Virus record (IMG/VR): IMGVR_UViG_3300024520_000162 | Span: 1-42,714 of that record | Length of the DNA: 42,714 nt | From: a virus | Strand: one strand, 5' to 3' | Shown here: piece by piece, positions 1 to 42,636 of the stretch | Layout: each line of letters begins with the position of its first letter | Numbering within the stretch: position 1 is the first letter of the stretch | The notes under the pieces: model-generated | Told to the model about the DNA's origin: nothing | Seen by the model: only the letters and a program-made list of their open reading frames with translations | The model's database searches: none | Position numbers and translations under genes: made by a program

Positions 1-216
1 GAGCTAGAAGAGCGAGCGAGAGAAGAGCGAGCGAGAGAAGAGCGACAAATGTCATCACGCGAGCTTAGTCAACTGTCACGCGCGACATTCGAGCAGCTAG
101 CACAAGCGAGCGGCCTCTCGACTACGTCTACAGGTACAAACGAAACTCAACCGGATACGTCCGAGTCCGAGTCCGAATACGACTCGTACGGACGTCGCAT
201 AAGGAGAAATTCATAA
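1..216 (+). CDS. 3' part of a small helical protein that likely starts at the other end of the window
   Basis: Frame 1 is open from the first base to a TAA at 214-216, giving 71 residues. The stop overlaps the ATG of the next gene (TAATG), which is typical operon packing. The beginning is highly charged (repeats of Glu-Glu-Arg-Ala-Arg) from two perfect 15-bp tandem copies at 10-39, then a Ser/Thr/Glu-rich tail. If the window ends are joined, the frame continues back to ATG codons at 42694 and 42688, giving about 78-80 residues. An alternative complete start is ATG 49 (55 aa), but its ribosome site is weak. Function is unknown; a coiled-coil or helical adaptor fold is only an inference. Confidence 0.6.
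   Translation, partial: ELEERAREERAREERQMSSRELSQLSRATFEQLAQASGLSTTSTGTNETQPDTSESESEYDSYGRRIRRNS
10..39 (+). repeat. 15-bp tandem repeat (2 perfect copies plus a partial third)
   Basis: The unit GAGCGAGCGAGAGAA occurs at 10-24 and 25-39 and continues partially. The period is a multiple of 3, so the reading frame is kept and encodes a Glu/Arg/Ala helix repeat. Confidence 0.9.
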
Positions 217-1274
217 TGTGTTCAATTGCAGGATTCATCACAGACAAACCACTTCATCGCCTAACCGCCTATCGCCTTGGGACCGCGCTATTATTCTATG
301 GCGCTGACCGTGGTGAGCAATCCACCGGGGTATTCCTCTCCGGTTCCGTCGAAAAGGGCCTAAATGGTAGCCGCAAGACTATCCAAAAAGAAGCCCTATT
401 CAAGAAAGCGATTAGCCCCAATCGCTTTATCGAGGAGCCTCACTTCCTCAAGATGTTCGACGGGACCGCCACGGTGGGCCTCTTTCATACGAGACAGCCG
501 ACATGTGGCGACAAAACGCGACGACAGGCGCAGCCATTTAGAGGCAGACGCTCAGTAACCGTACATAACGGGATGTACTGGGAGCCAAAAGAGCTAAAGG
601 ACCAATGGGGCCTAGACAAAGATACGGGCGTAGACTCGGAACTCGTCACAAACTTTATTGACGCGTACGGGATACGCGCCCTTCCCGACTTTCTGGAATC
701 TTCACGTGGCATGTCAGCCGTCGCAGCATGGTTCGGAAACCGCCTGTACCTAGCGCGAGACTCGAACCCGACCGCCCTTACGCAATTTACGCTCGACGAC
801 AAGACGAGCGTAACCGTGTTCGCGTCAACGCGTGACATTCTCGAAAATGCACTCCGCTACATATTCTTACGCGACAATTGGGAAATTGAAGTCACGAACG
901 CAAATGAACTTATACACGTAAGTCCGAGTACGACGACAAAAGTGGCCAAGTGGAACGACAGCGGCCCCCTATGGACTAATTATCGCGACAATGACTCAGA
1001 ACCCGGCTCCCCTTTACTATATGACGAATACGGCGAAGCATACGGAGCCACAGGCGAGTCCACGCGCGGCTGGGAAAACTGGGTCCATCGTAAGGCACGT
1101 AGGACATACGAGTCATGTAAGACGCGTAAGTCACATAAGAAATACGACTTATGCAAAAATGACTCGCGAGACTCGAACGGCTCGTACGGAGGCAAGGTCA
1201 CTCGCTTGCTCACGGGCGCAAAGAAAGGGAAAGTCATAGAAGATGCGAAAAAAGAAACGAACGAAACCGACTAA
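216..1274 (+). CDS. Class II glutamine amidotransferase-like (Ntn hydrolase) protein
   Basis: The protein begins MCSIAGF. In the class II glutamine amidotransferase family, Met removal leaves Cys as the catalytic nucleophile. Other family signatures are HTRQPTCG near residue 91 (glutamine-binding arginine loop), HNGMYWEP near 117, and a strand with the LARDSNPTAL pattern after residue 170. The amidotransferase fold fills about residues 1-235. The remaining roughly 115 residues are basic and low-complexity, and no synthetase, isomerase or QueC-like partner domain follows. Family members release ammonia from glutamine for a partner synthase; here the acceptor is unknown. The start has a clear ribosome site (AAGGAG). 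A nucleotide or DNA modification role is possible but not shown. Confidence 0.75.
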   Translation: MCSIAGFITDKPLHRLTAYRLGTALLFYGADRGEQSTGVFLSGSVEKGLNGSRKTIQKEALFKKAISPNRFIEEPHFLKMFDGTATVGLFHTRQPTCGDKTRRQAQPFRGRRSVTVHNGMYWEPKELKDQWGLDKDTGVDSELVTNFIDAYGIRALPDFLESSRGMSAVAAWFGNRLYLARDSNPTALTQFTLDDKTSVTVFASTRDILENALRYIFLRDNWEIEVTNANELIHVSPSTTTKVAKWNDSGPLWTNYRDNDSEPGSPLLYDEYGEAYGATGESTRGWENWVHRKARRTYESCKTRKSHKKYDLCKNDSRDSNGSYGGKVTRLLTGAKKGKVIEDAKKETNETD

Positions 1275-3965: not shown

Positions 3966-4219
3966 GCGAAACATACGTAACATACGAAACATGCGCGCCG
4001 GGCGAAACATACGAAAGACAAACATGCGAACCCGGCGAAACATACGAAAAGCTCGAAAGGTTCCGCATACGTATACGCGAACTTCATAGACGACTGGATC
4101 AAGTCGAAAATGTCCTTCGACGAGCCGCACGTGATTCCGCAGACGCCGGAAGCCACATAAGTGCCGCGCTCGACGAACTCTCGAAACTGGACGAACGTGA
4201 CAAAAGGAACCTTACGTGA
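3962..4219 (+). CDS. Small helical protein with GETYE repeats
   Basis: ATGA overlap with the peptidase gene sets the start. The 85 residues begin with repeats around the words ETY and GETYE, encoded by copies of the ACATACGA motif. A predicted coiled coil follows at about residues 30-80 (RIRELHRRLDQVENVL and similar heptads). The repeat part seems to be translated repeat DNA rather than a conserved domain. Function unknown. Confidence 0.6.
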   Translation: MSETYVTYETCAPGETYERQTCEPGETYEKLERFRIRIRELHRRLDQVENVLRRAARDSADAGSHISAALDELSKLDERDKRNLT

Positions 4220-4439: not shown

Positions 4440-5183
4440 ATGACCCTTATAGGCACAAAATTACCCAGACGCGCCCAGTGCTGGAAATGTAAATTCACGC
4501 TACTGGAAAAAGTGCGTGAAATAGGAAACGAAACATACGTATGTCGCGTATGTAACGTACCTTCCGTACGCTCACTTGCACATGCACGAGCACGCGACCA
4601 AAAAGTACCGCCGACCCTTTTCGAACTCGACCTCAAGTGGCAAGCGGAAGGCGCCCCAGGACTCGCGAAACATACGAAAGACAAACATGCGAGCCTCGCG
4701 AAAGACACACATACGCACATGAACAAAAAAAGGCCGTCTAATGGAGACGAGCCACAAAAACATATACACATAAAGGAGAATGTCCCAATGACCCTAGGAG
4801 ACAAAATCACAGCGGCCATGAGCCAAAAACAAATAACGATCGCACAAGCGTCGAAACGCTTTGGCCTTCATCACACGACAATCAGTAATCACATGAAACG
4901 TACCAAGAAAATATCTATGGTACGTACAGAAACCAAAAATTTCCTGACCTTTCTCGGAATCGACATTCGAGAAGCGTTCAACTCCAAGCCAAGATACGGC
5001 GCCCGTAAGTCACATGGCGCTCCACGCTGGAAAACGAACATCAAGAAACGACAAGCCAAGAGCTTACATGAGTCACTAAACGAAACATTCATGCTCGTAA
5101 ATACGACAAAGAACGAAATCGTAAAATCGTTCGAGAATCGACGAGCCTCGAACGAACGACGAAACGGCGAACGCCGCGCATGA
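4440..5183 (+). CDS. Zinc-finger plus HTH protein, probable gene fusion
   Basis: The 247-residue frame starts after a strong ribosome site (AAAGGAG). Residues 14-41 hold CWKC and CRVC pairs of a zinc ribbon. Residues 117-160 hold an HTH (ITIAQASKRFGLHHTTISNHM), followed by a basic C-terminus. The linker at about 75-115 is a translated copy of the intergenic ACATACGA-type repeat. Inside it, TAAAGGAG sits properly spaced before the in-frame ATG 4788, so a separate 131-residue HTH protein could also be made. I read this as two genes joined by stop loss, or one gene with an internal start. A transcriptional role is inferred. Confidence 0.65.
   Translation: MTLIGTKLPRRAQCWKCKFTLLEKVREIGNETYVCRVCNVPSVRSLAHARARDQKVPPTLFELDLKWQAEGAPGLAKHTKDKHASLAKDTHTHMNKKRPSNGDEPQKHIHIKENVPMTLGDKITAAMSQKQITIAQASKRFGLHHTTISNHMKRTKKISMVRTETKNFLTFLGIDIREAFNSKPRYGARKSHGAPRWKTNIKKRQAKSLHESLNETFMLVNTTKNEIVKSFENRRASNERRNGERRA
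4771..4790 (+). promoter_or_regulatory. Internal ribosome binding site and start
   Basis: TAAAGGAG is followed 8 nt later by ATG 4788, in the same frame as the zinc-finger/HTH ORF. This is as good as the ribosome sites of independent genes in this arm. Confidence 0.55.
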
Positions 5184-5808: not shown

Positions 5809-6185
5809 AAAAGTCAGCAAAAGACAAGCATAAGGCTCCAGTCATTATCGACCCCGCGACGAATCGCGTAGCCAAAATTACAGAAGACCGAATGATTCAG
5901 TCGCTCTTTCGTGACCGTAAATCTACGCTCGAAGCCTTCAACGAATGTCTAACTTTATTATATGACAAGTATAAGATGAACTCGGCGGAAGCTTCCGTCG
6001 TCGCATGTACCCTAGGCCATTTCACGTGGCACGACATCGAACGTGAATTTCGCGTGGACCGTTACATCGACGCAATCGAGCACGAAGTAAAAGCTCGCGG
6101 CTGGAACTTCTTCAAGTCAAGCGTCATTAAAGGAACAGAATCCGTAAAGCCCAAAGCCAAGCGCATAAAGGAAACCTTAAATTAA
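5805..6185 (+). CDS. Hypothetical helical protein
   Basis: ATGA overlap with the HNH gene and the ribosome site AAGGAG fix the start. The 126 residues are mostly alpha-helical and Lys-rich at both ends, with a mixed charged core. No motif or family is recognised. The position between nuclease genes suggests early expression only. Confidence 0.6.
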   Translation: MKKSAKDKHKAPVIIDPATNRVAKITEDRMIQSLFRDRKSTLEAFNECLTLLYDKYKMNSAEASVVACTLGHFTWHDIEREFRVDRYIDAIEHEVKARGWNFFKSSVIKGTESVKPKAKRIKETLN

Positions 6186-6218
6186 AAATGAAACATATGA
6201 AACAGGAGACATACGAAA

Positions 6219-6425
6219 ATGAAACATACGAGACATAAACGAAAAGCCAAAAGGAAATCTAAGCGTATCCGAAACATCAAGCCGCCTCTCGAAAGCCGAG
6301 AGATTCAGAACCTTATTGACTCACTCGAAATCGCTCTAACAAAGCGCATTGGCATAGACGTCAAAGTCAGGTTTGTCATCGAACCCTCTGGGTACGTCGT
6401 TAAGTGGACAGGGTACGGCGAATGA
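6219..6425 (+). CDS. Small basic hypothetical protein
   Basis: The 68-residue product has a strongly basic first 22 residues (Lys/Arg/His) and then a compact predicted alpha/beta part ending in VRFVIEPSGYVVKWTG. The leader is GGAGACATACGAAAATG, where the recurrent ACATACGA word sits between the ribosome site and the ATG. No family recognised. Confidence 0.6.
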   Translation: MKHTRHKRKAKRKSKRIRNIKPPLESREIQNLIDSLEIALTKRIGIDVKVRFVIEPSGYVVKWTGYGE

Positions 6426-11392: not shown

Positions 11393-12265
11393 ATGAATAT
11401 GACAGATACAAACGAAATAGCGTCTAAGCCCAATACGACAGGCTCCAATATGACAGGCTCGAATATGACAGGCTCAAAGCTAGACATTTTAATGTACGGA
11501 GAAACAGGAACCGGAAAATCGATTCGCGCCGCAAGCGCTGCCGTATTCGGAAAAGTATTCATATTCGACTTCGACCTAAAGTTCGATTCCATAAAGCACT
11601 ACTATAATGACAAGCCGGAAATTCTCGAAAACGTCTCGCATGAGTCTTACGCGGACAATCTTGAAACTCCAAATGCGTGTACCCGCGCCTATCAAAAATT
11701 AAAGGACATATGGAAACAGGTCGCATCCGGCACATGTCCCTATGACACGATCGTCTGGGACTCCTGGACCGAATGGGAACAAATGAACTTGCGTCAGATC
11801 ATGGCGACGAATCCAGGCTTCAAACGTATGAAAGCCAATATTGGAATCGGTACCGTAACCGTACCCGACCAAGCAGATTATCGAATACACGCACATTTGC
11901 AGCAGACGTTTCTGCCGCAGCTTCTTTCGCTTCCCTTAAATGTTATCGTAATTTGCCATATCGCGACACGCGTAGACGAAATTACAGGCGGAATCGAACG
12001 AGGCGTAGCCGCAGCGGGCAAGCTCATGAAAGTCATGCCAAAGTATTTCGGCGAAACGCATCGCGCTTTTGTAGACCCTAGCGGTGCATATCGTATCCAA
12101 GTACGTGGAAACCATCAATTTACGGCAAAGACATGCATGAAAAACATTCCTCAAGACGGAATCCTCACGCCAGACCTTGAGCCCTTCCGTTACATGGCCA
12201 AGACACATACGAGCCAAGCGAAACATACGAGTGACTCACAAACAAATAAGGAGAACCCCAAATGA
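11393..12265 (+). CDS. Sak4-like AAA/RecA-fold ATPase (recombinase)
   Basis: The 290-residue protein has Walker A GETGTGKS at 36-43, the strand KVFIFDFD, a Walker B-like TIVWDS near residue 122, and NVIVICHIATRVDE near 185. This pattern is shared with phage Sak4-type single-strand annealing or RecA-like ATPases, which anneal DNA with help from an SSB. A Gly-Ser-Asn-Met-Thr repeat fills residues 15-28 ahead of the P-loop, from three 15-bp copies, and creates extra in-frame Met codons. A likely SSB, the polymerase and the helicase follow downstream. Confidence 0.8.
   Translation: MNMTDTNEIASKPNTTGSNMTGSNMTGSKLDILMYGETGTGKSIRAASAAVFGKVFIFDFDLKFDSIKHYYNDKPEILENVSHESYADNLETPNACTRAYQKLKDIWKQVASGTCPYDTIVWDSWTEWEQMNLRQIMATNPGFKRMKANIGIGTVTVPDQADYRIHAHLQQTFLPQLLSLPLNVIVICHIATRVDEITGGIERGVAAAGKLMKVMPKYFGETHRAFVDPSGAYRIQVRGNHQFTAKTCMKNIPQDGILTPDLEPFRYMAKTHTSQAKHTSDSQTNKENPK
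11431..11475 (+). repeat. 15-bp tandem repeat x3 in the Sak4-like gene
   Basis: Units CAATACGACAGGCTC, CAATATGACAGGCTC and GAATATGACAGGCTC follow each other. They keep the frame and encode Asn-(Thr/Met)-Thr-Gly-Ser repeats in the N-terminal tail of the ATPase. Confidence 0.9.
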
Positions 12266-20832: not shown

Positions 20833-22602
20833 TTAAGGCCCTTCGAGCGAGTTCATAGCATCTACGACTTGGTCCCAAAAAGGAAAAGAACCGTCCTTGT
20901 CCTTAAATGAAAGTAGCATTCGTGCCGTAATTTTCGCGTCTTCGGGAGCCGCGTCGACGATTTCGTCCGCGCTCGGAACTCCACTCGCTCCGCTCGCCGC
21001 ACGAGATTCCGCGAGAACCTTCATGCTCGGCGCTAATTTAGCCGCAATATGCGACGCCGCTTCCGGCTTCATGCCTTTTTCCTGTAGCGACAAAACTCCC
21101 GCGCGTAAAAGTTCCGTTTCCGAACGCGACTCTTCAAGTCGTTTCTGTAACGTGTCAATAAATGGCTGCGGCAAATTCCGTGTCTTCGCATTTTCGACGG
21201 CGCCCTCAAGCGCATTCGTCATGAACTGATTCTGCATATAGACAGAACCAAGCGCCTGAATCCCAGCAGCGAGATCGACGGTCAGTAACTGCCCTGTCTG
21301 AGCATCGAACGTAGCCAAACGGCCTTCTTCACGTAACCGAATAATGTCAAATCCCAAGTTCTGAGAACCCGCCACGACCGCATTCGCTAGCGGGCTAGGC
21401 TGTGGATCCCCTCGCAAAAAGAAATTCGCTACCTTCGCCCCAATTCGAGCAAGCAACGCAAGTCCCTCCGTCGAACGTGAGGCAGCCGCCTTCGTAATCT
21501 CTCCACGAAGCACTCCAGACTCTTCTCCCTTTTCAATTACCTTAAGAAAATTGTCCGTTACAGCACGTTGATTCCTCAAAATCGTACCTGTCGTTTTCAA
21601 GAATCCTTTGTCCTTCGCATCCAGTTTACCTACAGGTCCAATTAAGATTTTCGGCTCGGCGTTCGCGGGCGTTTGTGCCTGTCCTGGTATGTCTTCTTCA
21701 GTCGTAAATTCGTCAAAGTTAGAAACCGTACCCGTCGACGCCGGGCCAGTAACGGGCGCAGGCGCTTGTGGAATCACAGCATCTGGCGCCGTACCTTTCG
21801 TACCTTTCGTACCTTTCGTACCTTTCGCTGGAATCGCTGGACCCGTTCCCGCACGTCCGCTTCGTACGCCTTGAATGATTCCAGAGACCTCCGTCGCAAT
21901 CTGCTTACCAATTTCCGGCGTAAGATTCTGTCCCTGAAACTTTTCGAACCTGTTCTGAATCTGAGTCTCGATAATGTTTCCTTCTGTTTTCGCGAGTTCA
22001 GCGCGTTCACGCTCTCCCTGCGCCGAAATAGCGAGCGTAGGCTTTCCAGATTCTCCGGGCGCAAACGTAGTCGTCGTACCAAAACGTCGTCTCGATTCCT
22101 CGATCGTCGCTTGCTGCGTCGGATCCGTCCCAAATGTAGCTTCGGCCCCAGATTCTCCCGCGAGCTTACGCACGAAAGTAACTGTATCGTCGAGACGCTT
22201 CGCCGTAGGATCTGCCGGTAAAACCATTTCAATCAACTTCATGTCGCCTTCTTTTAAGGTTCCACGAAACTTGCCTGTAAGTGCCTGAGCCACATCCGGT
22301 CCCGCTGGACCCGCGAAAACGTCAGTCTTAAAGTCGCCTTCATTCTCAATTATGCCAGAGCCTTCAGCGAGCTTCTGAATCTGAGAGTCAAAGAATCCAA
22401 AGTACTGTTTCCGTCCAGAGGCCGACTCGAACTTCATTCCACGATCAATAATGGAATTTAACTGACTAAGACTAAGGGCTCGCTGCTTTACGACGAGCGC
22501 CTTCTTGCGGTCCTCGGACTCGACTATCGTCCGCGAAAGCTGTGCTCCGATCGCGCCAAAGCCAGTCAGTAACTTTCCCGCTTTTTCTCCCGGCGTCGCC
22601 AT
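20833..22602 (-). CDS. Internal virion protein with KGT repeat
   Basis: The 589-residue protein is helical at both ends with a Pro/Thr/Gly-rich disordered middle that includes a KGT repeat (four 9-bp units). The start overlaps the previous stop (TAATG). It has no recognised motif; the position and helical composition fit the middle ejection protein. No lytic transglycosylase active site was visible. Confidence 0.6.
   Translation of the reverse strand: MATPGEKAGKLLTGFGAIGAQLSRTIVESEDRKKALVVKQRALSLSQLNSIIDRGMKFESASGRKQYFGFFDSQIQKLAEGSGIIENEGDFKTDVFAGPAGPDVAQALTGKFRGTLKEGDMKLIEMVLPADPTAKRLDDTVTFVRKLAGESGAEATFGTDPTQQATIEESRRRFGTTTTFAPGESGKPTLAISAQGERERAELAKTEGNIIETQIQNRFEKFQGQNLTPEIGKQIATEVSGIIQGVRSGRAGTGPAIPAKGTKGTKGTKGTAPDAVIPQAPAPVTGPASTGTVSNFDEFTTEEDIPGQAQTPANAEPKILIGPVGKLDAKDKGFLKTTGTILRNQRAVTDNFLKVIEKGEESGVLRGEITKAAASRSTEGLALLARIGAKVANFFLRGDPQPSPLANAVVAGSQNLGFDIIRLREEGRLATFDAQTGQLLTVDLAAGIQALGSVYMQNQFMTNALEGAVENAKTRNLPQPFIDTLQKRLEESRSETELLRAGVLSLQEKGMKPEAASHIAAKLAPSMKVLAESRAASGASGVPSADEIVDAAPEDAKITARMLLSFKDKDGSFPFWDQVVDAMNSLEGP
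21791..21826 (-). repeat. 9-bp tandem repeat x4
   Basis: GTACCTTTC repeats four times perfectly on the + strand, encoding Lys-Gly-Thr repeats on the minus strand in the middle of the internal virion protein. It sits in the disordered linker, so copy number may vary. Confidence 0.95.
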
Positions 22603-39243: not shown

Positions 39244-39449
39244 CAAGTATTTCCTTTCCTAAATGAATATGACGGAGTCGGTACAACGAGCCTTACGCGA
39301 TCATCGAATACACACGAATGACATAGTCCAATCGTACGACGAAAGTCGGTCTCTGGAAATTCTGTTCCACATACGCGACAGTTCCAGTAACGTCCGTTAC
39401 GTATAGCGTCCGAGCGTACATGTCCGTCGTTCGTCTGAGACTCGTTCAT
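39243..39449 (-). CDS. Small zinc-finger protein
   Basis: ATG 39449 overlaps the preceding stop (ATGA), and its TGA overlaps the portal start. The 68 residues contain CRVC near 24 and CHSC near 43, a zinc-ribbon layout. It sits between TerL nuclease and portal genes, where HNH-type or small accessory packaging factors often lie. No His/Asn nuclease motif is seen. Confidence 0.65.
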   Translation of the reverse strand: MNESQTNDGHVRSDAIRNGRYWNCRVCGTEFPETDFRRTIGLCHSCVFDDRVRLVVPTPSYSFRKGNT

Positions 39450-40366
39450 CGACGTACTCCTTTTACGCCGCCGACTTCTCGAAACGAATATGACGGATTC
39501 GGAATCTTCGTACGTATTCCATAGCCCATCATGGAGCTTAAGGTACGTACACGCGTGGCCAGGTACTGAAGCGCATCATGAGGATGCGAGAACGCATTTT
39601 TGAGGGGGCGGTCGATCCGCACCACACTTCTAGGCGAAACCTTCTCCGGGTATTGGTATCCACCACGAAAACCCGCAATCAGGATCTTACACCTAGGATT
39701 TACCATAAGACACGGCCTTCCCCCATCCAGTCGTGTCAGCAGCTCAAGTACCGCCCCCAATCGTTTCTCGTATGTGACGTCTCCGGCAATTGGCGCTAGA
39801 CGGTTTCGTCTCATTACGTCTACGCATGTCGTTTCTTCGCTTTCTTTTCCAGCAGAGAACCCAGCGGGATCGACAAAGTCATAAAAGTCATAGCCTCCAA
39901 AATGTAAGCCGCAAAAGTCGACCACTTCGGGCACGAAACGTATGGCGCCGATATTGACGCCTACGATCTCGTCAAGGATCACGAGACGTCGTCCGATAAA
40001 CTGGCCAATCACGCATGCGGGAGTCATCCCAAAGTCCCAACCACGTAAAATCGGTAAGCCAATTTCGGGCGACTGGTCTCGTAGCCATATATGTGTAGAT
40101 GACCGGAAGTCTTTGCCATATACGGGCTTCCCCGCGTGTGTGTCCCACGATAGTTCGTACTCACGGTCCCACTCAGACTGAGGTAAGCCTCGCGCTGCGT
40201 CGTCGCGCCATTCAGGCGCACGTTTCTTAGGGTCCGCAGAATAATGAAGCTCGATTACCGCGAAACCATTCGAGCGGTTTCTCCATATGCGCAGGCCCGT
40301 CGAGTCGGGAGGCAACAGGTTCGTAAGTTCGTCGACAGTAAGCGTATTTTCTCGTGTGTCGCGCAT
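39446..40366 (-). CDS. Large terminase, nuclease part
   Basis: The 306-residue ORF holds the RuvC-like nuclease region of TerL: RGWDFG with Asp111, FVDPAG with Asp166, and HPHDALQYL near 275. The first 80 residues (GFAVIELHYSADPKKRAP, WDREYELSW) are the linker normally found in one chain with the ATPase. It starts two bases after the stop of the ATPase ORF, in the -1 frame relative to it. No classic slippery heptamer is seen. The ribosome site is poor. Confidence 0.85.
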   Translation of the reverse strand: MRDTRENTLTVDELTNLLPPDSTGLRIWRNRSNGFAVIELHYSADPKKRAPEWRDDAARGLPQSEWDREYELSWDTHAGKPVYGKDFRSSTHIWLRDQSPEIGLPILRGWDFGMTPACVIGQFIGRRLVILDEIVGVNIGAIRFVPEVVDFCGLHFGGYDFYDFVDPAGFSAGKESEETTCVDVMRRNRLAPIAGDVTYEKRLGAVLELLTRLDGGRPCLMVNPRCKILIAGFRGGYQYPEKVSPRSVVRIDRPLKNAFSHPHDALQYLATRVRTLSSMMGYGIRTKIPNPSYSFREVGGVKGVRR

Positions 40367-40368
40367 AC

Positions 40369-41025
40369 CTAAGACTCGATCGTATCAAAGCAAAGTTTCT
40401 TGAAAAATGAATCTTCGGTCCCGAACTGTGGCGGTGGCGTAGAAACGATCGTGACGCGTCCGCCTCCTAAAATTGTCGGTTTCGACGCGGTATATGTTTC
40501 GCGACCTTTTTCCCAGAACGCGAACTCGTCCATGAAGATTCCCGAAGCCGTATATTGTCTAAGTTGGTCCGGTCCCTGAGCTACGGCATTAATAGACGAG
40601 TTTATGTCGTCAAAGATTAAGTGATTCTCCTTGTAACGTGCTTTCGGCAAAAATTCGTCCGAGAAAATGTCGCGTGGAATATTCCTATAAATAAAATGGG
40701 CTCGTTTGACTAATTCGTCTGCGTCGACTTCTTTTTTGGACACGAAGAAAATGCGTCGATGATTATGTGTGATCGCGTCATGTAAATAAAGGGCGATAAA
40801 GAGCCAGGTGATCCACATACGGCGTGACTTAGGTACGGCCAGGAGCGGTTCGCGTTGCCAGGTACGAACGAGCGTCTTAAGATAGGCGCGGCTGACGGGA
40901 GCTTGCTTTACGGGCGAGCGAAGATCGACTTCGTCCTCCGTATATACGCAGTTCGAAAGAAAGGCCCAGGGATCCCGAAGCTTCATGTAGCGGTCGAACT
41001 CTGGAGGCCGCGCATTTGGGCTCAA
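40369..41025 (-). CDS. Large terminase, ATPase part
   Basis: The ORF starts with TTG 41025 overlapping the TerS stop (TTGA) and preceded by GAGGAAATTGTACA. The 218 residues contain the Walker A-like VPKSRRMWITW near 64-74, Walker B IFMDEFAFW with Asp166, and VTIVSTPPP, the ATPase-coupling motif. The P-loop lacks the usual GK pair, as in some other phage terminases. It ends FDTIES with TAG and the nuclease part follows in another frame. It powers DNA packaging. Confidence 0.85.
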   Translation of the reverse strand: MSPNARPPEFDRYMKLRDPWAFLSNCVYTEDEVDLRSPVKQAPVSRAYLKTLVRTWQREPLLAVPKSRRMWITWLFIALYLHDAITHNHRRIFFVSKKEVDADELVKRAHFIYRNIPRDIFSDEFLPKARYKENHLIFDDINSSINAVAQGPDQLRQYTASGIFMDEFAFWEKGRETYTASKPTILGGGRVTIVSTPPPQFGTEDSFFKKLCFDTIES

Positions 41026-41681
41026 TGTACAATTTCCTCTTCGTCCTTCGGAAGGTCTTTTTCGAGTGTCTTTAGTTCGTCGGCGAAGTCGGCTTCGCTT
41101 TCGGCGTCGATCTGAGCAATTACCTGTTTCAGTAGGTTTCCGCGATGCTCGACGGGCTGAGTCGCCTTGCCCATGACGCGTTCGATGATACGCGTAGCAG
41201 CGTCGAGCCTAGTGGAGCCGCGTTCCTCATGATTTACCATGATTTCGCGTGTGACTTCGATGGCCCGTGGAAGAAGTTTCTTGAACTCTTCGTCTACAGT
41301 TAGGATTCCGAGATGAATCTGCAGGGCACGAACCCATTTGCGAAAGTCGGGGCGCTTGGCCCACTTAGAGACGGTCGCGGCAGCGAGGCCCGCCTTACGG
41401 CCTAGTTCGGCGTACGTTTTTACGCCTTTGGCCATGGCGATGGCGACTTGTTCCATCTTAGGAGTCATGCGTTGGGTGCCTTCTGGAGGCTCGATGTCTT
41501 CGAAAATTACGTCGCGTACGGATTCGTCCATCTTGGCTTCGATGTCGTGTTCGATCGTGCGCATGGTTTCGCCGAATGCCTGATTAAGGGCCGTACGTGT
41601 TTCGGCTCGTTCGTCGAGAGCTTCTTCGCGCGCTATTCTTGATGCGAGAGTAGGTTTTTCTGGTTTCTTTTCGTCTGTCAT
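41022..41681 (-). CDS. Small terminase subunit
   Basis: The 219-residue protein has an HTH at about 88-116 (TYAELGRKAGLAAATVSKWA) and a helical oligomerisation part after it, with a Glu-rich C-terminus likely to bind the large subunit. It overlaps the TerL start by 4 nt. No ribosome site precedes ATG 41681; the promoter lies immediately upstream. It recognises the packaging site. Confidence 0.8.
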   Translation of the reverse strand: MTDEKKPEKPTLASRIAREEALDERAETRTALNQAFGETMRTIEHDIEAKMDESVRDVIFEDIEPPEGTQRMTPKMEQVAIAMAKGVKTYAELGRKAGLAAATVSKWAKRPDFRKWVRALQIHLGILTVDEEFKKLLPRAIEVTREIMVNHEERGSTRLDAATRIIERVMGKATQPVEHRGNLLKQVIAQIDAESEADFADELKTLEKDLPKDEEEIVH

Positions 41682-41692
41682 AGAAACAGTTT

Positions 41693-41720
41693 AACATAAT
41701 TAAAGGGCGAGGTATGTCGA
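41693..41720 (-). promoter_or_regulatory. Promoter for the leftward packaging/structural operon
   Basis: On the minus strand TCGACA (41720-41715) matches -35 in 5 of 6 bases, then 16 bp, then TATGTT (41698-41693) matches -10 in 4 of 6. The predicted start is about 5 bases before ATG 41681, so the TerS message would be close to leaderless, in agreement with the missing ribosome site. Confidence 0.5.
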
Positions 41721-41887
41721 ATTTACGTGTGAATACGACTTTTTGCGTGTAAGAATTACAAATATGGATGTATTTTCGCGCTATTTACTGACGCGTTGTG
41801 TCATTTGAGAAATGGCGTATACTTCCGTTAGGACTACCCCGAAGTACGGACTGCCTCTCAATACAGTTGGGGGGGATCGGATTATGC

Positions 41888-41985
41888 CATACGTCAACGT
41901 ATGTCACCATACGTGGACATGTGTCAACGTATCGTCACTGGCGCCATGTCTCCACGTGACGTACGTATGCCGTCACGTACGTGCG
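41888..41985. repeat. Array of CATACGT/ACGTATG half-sites and palindromes
   Basis: CATACGT at 41888, ACGTATG at 41897, CATACGT at 41908, ACGTAT at 41927 and ACGTATG at 41963 form alternating inverted pairs (CATACGT-CA-ACGTATG-TCAC-CATACGT). TGGCGCCA at 41939-41946 and CACGTACGTG near the end are further perfect palindromes. The core CATACG is the same as in the ACATACGA words of the left arm. The array could bind a repressor or initiator. Confidence 0.7.
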
Positions 41986-42080
41986 AGCCATTTTTAAGCA
42001 GCCGCAGTGCGTCAAGCTCAATGAATGCGCCTACTTATGACTCAATCGAGTAAATTTACTATGCAAATAGTAGCTAAGTA

Positions 42081-42232
42081 CCCGTAATCATTCAATAATT
42101 TTCGCTCAAAAATTGCTCAATCAAGTAATACTTGCACTGTCAGGTCAAATTACCGTGTAATTCCTCTATGCAAGTATTTCAATCGAGCCATAAGCCAATG
42201 ATTCCAACGACATACAAGCGCCCGTAATCATT
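42081..42232. repeat. 12-bp direct repeat CCCGTAATCATT x2
   Basis: The word occurs at 42081-42092 and 42221-42232, 140 bp apart, in the AT-rich part of the control region. Both copies are followed by T- or A-rich DNA and a TTTTCG word. Confidence 0.75.
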
Positions 42233-42325
42233 GCATTTTTCGAGTGACTCGCATGTCCGCACCTAGCGCGTGTCTCAGCCACTTGGCACGCGTCGTGCTC
42301 TAAGACGCGGCGAGCCTGAAAATTT

Positions 42326-42340
42326 TGCTCTTTGAAAATT
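42326..42340 (+). promoter_or_regulatory. boxA-like antitermination element
   Basis: TGCTCTTTGAAAATT closely resembles bacterial boxA (TGCTCTTTAACA in rRNA leaders). It lies 117 nt before the first rightward gene, in the position of a leader. NusB/S10-dependent antitermination of the early arm is an inference. A boxB-type hairpin was not clearly seen. Confidence 0.45.
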
Positions 42341-42456
42341 CGACATGCAACATAAAGCGAAAGGGTAGGCCAATGCGAGGTAATCCGCAAGTAATCAGTA
42401 TTTCGACGCATGGTGTGACGGGATACATCAAAACCAAAAAGAGAGTGAGGAAATTC

Positions 42457-42636
42457 ATGATAAAGAACGAACTCAAAGGAAGTCAATTAGTCCTGACAAT
42501 AGACCTAGACGGCGAACGTAGGCCGTCAAGTACCGGCAAAAGTGACATAATCGCGACAACGAGCGGCTTCCAGGGCCAAGTGTATAAGGGAGAAAACGTA
42601 AAATACATGGTAAACGTAATCGTCCCAAACAAATAA
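42457..42636 (+). CDS. Small conserved-type protein of unknown function
   Basis: I choose ATG 42457 because GTGAGGAAATTC lies just before it. The 59-residue product reads MIKNELKGSQLVLTIDLDG, then SSTGKSDIIATTSGFQ, resembling a small beta-rich protein family I have seen on plasmids and phages (LxIDL, then SxSGKxxxxAST). The SGKS word is not a P-loop in this context. It would be the first gene of the rightward arm. Confidence 0.65.
   Translation: MIKNELKGSQLVLTIDLDGERRPSSTGKSDIIATTSGFQGQVYKGENVKYMVNVIVPNK

Follow-up and report, generated by a model that had tools for sequence, protein, structure and literature searches.

Which unit is repeated in the divergent control region of this uncultured phage, and what might bind it? 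The window, i.e. the whole stretch of DNA that was analysed, is a virus record representing a phage contig of 42,714 bases. Its rightward replication arm (left arm) encodes a PDDEXK nuclease, a Sak4-like protein, a fusion of UDG and DNA polymerase A and a DUF3987 primase/helicase. The leftward packaging and structural arm (right arm) begins with the terminase small subunit gene terS, followed by a large terminase split over two frames, the portal and the capsid. The divergent non-coding region between both arms comprises about positions 41682-42456 and holds the array discussed here (Table 1).

The best matches of the capsid to known isolates stay below 30% identity, and a DNA similarity search against known phages delivered nothing useful. 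The TerS protein used as a direct query gave no matches, whereas alignments of the large terminase (TerL) recovered 310 relatives in IMG/VR. A scan of genome contigs for the host revealed only distant matches, in MAGs and Megasphaera genomes, and no host was assigned. Distant relatives of the large terminase (L181-L189) are located in bacterial genomes or MAGs of Omnitrophota, Latescibacterota, Selenomonadales, Megasphaera and Acidobacteria and are possible host leads.

Some further features of the genome were observed. The large terminase (39446-41025, minus strand) is divided between two ORFs of different frame, one for the ATPase and one for the nuclease, with a TAG GT ATG junction near 40366-40371; it is a single ORF in several relatives and split or interrupted in others. 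A class II glutamine amidotransferase-like gene (216-1274, plus strand) lies close to where the left arm begins. A 17-bp inverted repeat CGAGTGACGA...TCGTCACTCG is found at the contig end (42650-42690), shortly after the first left-arm ORF, and a perfect 9-bp tandem repeat CGTACCTTT with 4.2 copies at 21790-21827 in the right arm.

Table 1. Features of the control region (window coordinates) and sigma-54-like sites of relatives (positions relative to terS)
Feature	Position	Strand	Remarks
Terminase small subunit gene (terS)	41022..41681	-	first gene of right arm
TGAC-core array	41887..42015	-	GTCA (+ strand) at 41893, 41903, 41923, 41934, 41972, 42011; TGAC (+ strand) at 41957
Perfect 16-bp dyad CATACGT-CA-ACGTATG	41888..41903	.	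two reported half-sites, 41888 (+) and 41897 (-)
Third exact half-site CATACGT	41908..41914	+	
Imperfect half-site ACGTATC	41927..41933	-	1 mismatch
Palindrome TGGCGCCA	41939..41946	.	no conserved counterpart found
Fourth exact half-site ACGTATG	41963..41969	-	
Palindrome CACGTACGTG	41974..41983	.	inside hairpin 41960-41985
Outermost TGAC unit TTGACGCACTGC	42004..42015	-	exact match to element TTGACGCANTGC, enriched upstream of relatives' terS
Sigma-54-like promoter TGGCACGCGTCGTGCT	42284..42299	+	faces left arm; the window's only 11/12 site
First left-arm ORF beyond the sigma-54-like site	42457..42636	+	59 aa, no domain found
Sigma-54-like sites, L157	-208 (12/12), -157; -344		-344 facing away from terS
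Sigma-54-like sites, L146	-141; -287		
Sigma-54-like sites, L123	-145; -300		
Sigma-54-like sites, G041/L178	-101; -347		
Sigma-54-like sites, L163	-243; -393		more distant lineage

The CATACGT cluster of the window

An earlier note on this DNA had described five CATACGT/ACGTATG half-sites in alternating orientation, accompanied by two palindromes, and proposed cooperative binding by a dimeric protein. Four exact copies are present in the interval, and the fifth half-site is imperfect. Their order at 41888-41969 is + - + - -, so the five half-sites stand with one mismatch and a strict alternation does not. Both named palindromes were found (Table 1). The repeat cluster at 41888-41969 is real. 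It is the only spot in the genome at which one 7-mer occurs at least four times in 82 bp, counted on both strands, and a comparable cluster of any 7-mer appeared in none of 60 Markov genomes of order 1, in 2 of 60 of order 3 and in none of 60 of order 4. A tandem unit of 20 bp was detected at 41887-41926 (TRF). CATACGT occurs 28 times genome-wide compared to 5 times in dinucleotide shuffles; this excess is much weaker against Markov models of order 3 or 4, where 16-18 copies are expected. Dimer binding and cooperativity would be plausible for the array.

A link of the array to ACATACGA words dispersed over the left arm, as had also been suggested, could not be upheld, since strand bias, context and coding location differ. 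The left-arm CATACG words show a strand bias of 40:13, with 31 of the 40 located inside ORFs, and their usual contexts are GAAACATACG and CATACGA, without TGAC. Only the 6-mer CATACG is shared between the array and the ACATACGA words, and TGACATACG is found three times in the genome, one copy being part of the array. Words of the CGAAACATACGA type form short degenerate tandem repeats in the left arm (3966-4049, 6185-6231 and 12197-12231), both within and between genes, and are strongly strand-biased.

A TGAC core upstream of terS

For comparison, terS was located by profile in 58 loci. CATACGT had been taken for the repeat unit; the relatives instead have a TGAC core at a spacing of about 10 bp. 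As none of 26 other IMG/VR contigs with the CATACGTNNACGTATG dyad has a CATACGT array, this word was rejected as the conserved unit. It represents the tail of the TGAC units of the window, which read TTGACGCACTG, GTGACGGCATA, GTGACGATACG, TTGACACATGT, GTGACATACGT and TTGACGTATGG on the minus strand, with GTCA spacings of 10, 20, 11, 38 and 39 bp. What the relatives conserve is the TGAC core of the terS-sense (minus) strand, which recurs at intervals of about 10 bp between -215 and -333 from terS. The proposal of a putative protein-binding array in the control region thereby holds, the kind of array being kept in relatives with the TGAC core at the same place.

Six TGAC/GTCA cores per 100 bp are reached within the window at the array only (shuffle P = 0.0035 for the window's 700-bp region). 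The window, L157, L146 and L123 carry dense TGAC/GTCA arrays at about -190 to -340 from terS, and L133/L134 do so farther upstream, at -460 to -550; L136/L140 contain four TGAC cores, of which those in direct orientation are separated by 18-22 bp. A density of at least six cores per 100 bp was found in 5 of 41 distinct regions (window, L157, L146, L123, L133), for which shuffling gives a mean of 0.04 and a maximum of 1. Same-strand TGAC spacings in the 41 regions cluster at 9-11, 20-22, 30-32 and 40-41 bp. Over distinct relatives, the density of KTGACR is highest at -200 to -300 of terS (5.2/kb sense, 3.5/kb antisense; background 0.9/kb and 0.6/kb), where control words are flat. The TTGACGCANTGC element, with at most one mismatch, occurs 16 times in 39.7 kb upstream of terS versus 13 times in 629 kb elsewhere. 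Some AT-rich tetramers hit as many loci as TGAC, which is permitted by composition alone. The TGAC array is absent from most relatives with terS. L090, the nearest relative by TerL, has different repeated words and no TGAC array at this position. The arrays are carried by the sister clade in the TerL tree. It is well supported that the array is real, of a conserved kind and regulatory.

Sigma-54-like sites near the array

The consensus of sigma-54 promoters is TGGCAC-N5-7-TTGCT (PMC12316311). We scored the -24/-12 element as TGGCACGN4TTGCW (12 positions, GG-N10-GC), a consensus that was brought in only once the regions had been read. The element is present in the window (11/12 at 42284) and in relatives (10-12/12). 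Upstream of terS, seven sites with at least 11/12 were detected in 27 kb compared to 0.15 in shuffles, and none of 300 permuted consensuses reached this number, the maximum being three. By location, 10 such sites are intergenic (84 kb) and 9 lie in called coding sequence (1,035 kb), a far higher density between genes, although some of the latter, including that of the window, sit in small ORFs which are probably spurious.

Outward-facing sigma-54 consensus matches lie on both sides of the array in the sister clade. A sigma-54-like site scoring 10/12 or more is present in all six regions with at least five TGAC per 100 bp and in 2 of the 35 other regions; these lineages are related and do not count as independent. 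Among five relatives examined once the thresholds were fixed, L244 has four sites of 11-12 in alternating orientation at -504 to -579 from terS. G041 has an additional site right before a left-arm gene that carries a ribosome-binding site. Sites of sigma-54 activators are tandem and typically precede the promoter by about 80-200 bp. However, in L146, L123 and L157 the outermost TGAC is only 8-9 bp away from the left-arm-facing site, which is closer than usual for enhancers and counts against an enhancer.

The site of the window ends 157 bp before the first ORF and is separated from the array by 270-400 bp. It corresponds in its role to CGGCACGCATCGTGCT of L178, and TGGCACACATCCTGCT of L090 is found at -638, close to the -603 of the window site. 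No outward site toward terS was found in the window, and one 11/12 site in a region of 0.8 kb is only mildly improbable. We regard the link to sigma-54 as good for the relatives and the family and as moderate for the window genome.

Further observations were made upstream of terS in relatives. Other lineages have strong sites there as well: three tandem 12/12 sigma-54-like sites in G030/L168 (L168:95-203) and a strong sigma-54 consensus site in L096 (502-517). A G-rich stretch TTGCGGGGAGGGG... is conserved in L157, L146, L123 and L178 immediately after the sigma-54-like site that faces terS. Beyond the opposite site, three of these four have a ACTCTTAAG-like word and TATTGTC.

Possible binders and readings of the array

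Operators for a phage-encoded RHH or HTH repressor or activator controlling both arms, with the sigma-54-like site of the window as a coincidence, are a serious but unlikely explanation. The 16-bp dyad and the 20-bp repeat provide half-sites with fixed spacing that suit dimers on one DNA face, and different words at the array place in other relatives are expected of fast-evolving operators. The RHH and HTH proteins of the phage, which the earlier note had put forward as binders, are represented by two weak domain matches in the window, an RHH match at 1984-2589 and an HTH/repressor match at 4788-5183. However, no relative of the HTH protein turned up in 16 related records, and it was rejected as array binder. 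No left-arm regulator is common to the window and the complete array-bearing relative G041, which have replication and recombination proteins of this arm in common. Phages that lack a recognisable left-arm regulator in common with the window also have the TGAC core, and no cognate phage DNA-binding protein was found conserved alongside it. The phage's own RHH and HTH proteins are poor candidates.

The position upstream of terS in all array-bearing relatives, with the terS start about 200 bp away, would also suit a packaging site (pac or cos) for the terminase small subunit, which is an HTH protein common to all of them. We consider this improbable: the HTH recognition regions are strongly different (AAATVSKWAK in the window, HVQTVMLVAT in L157) despite the common TGAC core, and the TGAC array is missing from L090, which by TerL is nearer to the window, and from most relatives with terS. 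Going by the alignment, the recognition helices do not appear to track the motif; TerS was rejected as conserved binder and seems a poor candidate. Iterons of a replication origin beside an AT-rich unwinding region are quite improbable. The near-helical repeats do adjoin a stretch of 37% GC (42016-42240) with a repeated 17-mer (42076 and 42216), but there is no clear GC-skew reversal at the array, no initiator was recognised and the association with sigma-54-like sites would stay unexplained. Chance or biased word composition, or an RNA hairpin or terminator instead of a DNA site, is very improbable. CATACG words are abundant in the genome, and at 41960-41985 a hairpin followed by TTTTT resembles a terminator on the plus strand, with a minus-strand fold of z = -2.2. 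Such sites, however, occur near the number in shuffles (2 versus 1.2), and an RNA element was rejected on its weak fold and the lack of a match in Rfam, while the TGAC core and its position recur in relatives.

The phage records searched gave no match over the family cut-off to a sigma-54 domain or to a sigma-54 activator domain; two sub-threshold fragments were found in G025 and G035. A phage-encoded sigma-54 or activator was therefore rejected, and both would be host-derived. With these, the HTH protein and TerS eliminated, a host activator would be the simplest candidate for the binder. We tentatively favour, at somewhat less than an even chance, an upstream activating (enhancer-like) array between divergent promoters in a sigma-54-type control region. 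The array would act from the divergent region that separates the rightward replication arm from the leftward arm starting with terS. The unit is a TGAC core (about TGACRTRYGT) with near-helical repetition on the terS-sense strand and some inverted partners. A host sigma-54 activator (bacterial enhancer-binding protein) may bind along one helix face and, by looping, contact host sigma-54 RNA polymerase at the outward promoters, which would coordinate both arms.

As a rule, phages either depend on the housekeeping sigma factor or supply factors of their own. Because transcription by sigma-54 requires an ATP-driven activator responsive to a host signal, expression in a phage using sigma-54 would be conditional on the state of the host. 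It is a possible, though doubtful, extension that a widespread uncultured phage family shares such a bidirectional enhancer and runs both arms by host sigma-54 polymerase and activator, tying infection to a host signal. If true, phage gene expression would depend on host state through enhancer-driven transcription, and the prediction is precise: it names the promoters and the activator sites and requires rpoN. A phage running its genes by sigma-54 and an activator was not described in the open literature searched, the coverage of which is incomplete.

The array resembles several known systems in part. Phage repressor operators (lambda OR/OL; RHH operators such as Arc and ParR/parC) likewise consist of dyads about two helix turns apart in a divergent control region, whereas here no conserved phage regulator accompanies the array and the core is common to phages with different regulators. 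The lambda cosB and pac terminase sites also have repeats upstream of the small terminase gene, but the motif of the array does not track the DNA-binding helix of TerS. Bacterial sigma-54 enhancers (NtrC-type upstream activating sequences) share with it tandem activator-type sites near a TGGCAC-N5-TTGC promoter. In contrast to these, the phage array has a TGAC core at about 10-bp direct spacing, occurs in a family without detected sigma-54 or activator and, in the sister clade, is placed between two outward promoters; the window has one recognisable site. The PilR sites upstream of pilA in P. aeruginosa are tandem (C/G)TGTC words; short TGTC-type cores in tandem upstream of a sigma-54 promoter may be a similar case, which we take as a lead only. 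A further example of a sigma-54 enhancer is given by the NmpR sites GCGCA-N5-TGCGC of M. xanthus, one of which lies between divergent genes (PMC11841059).
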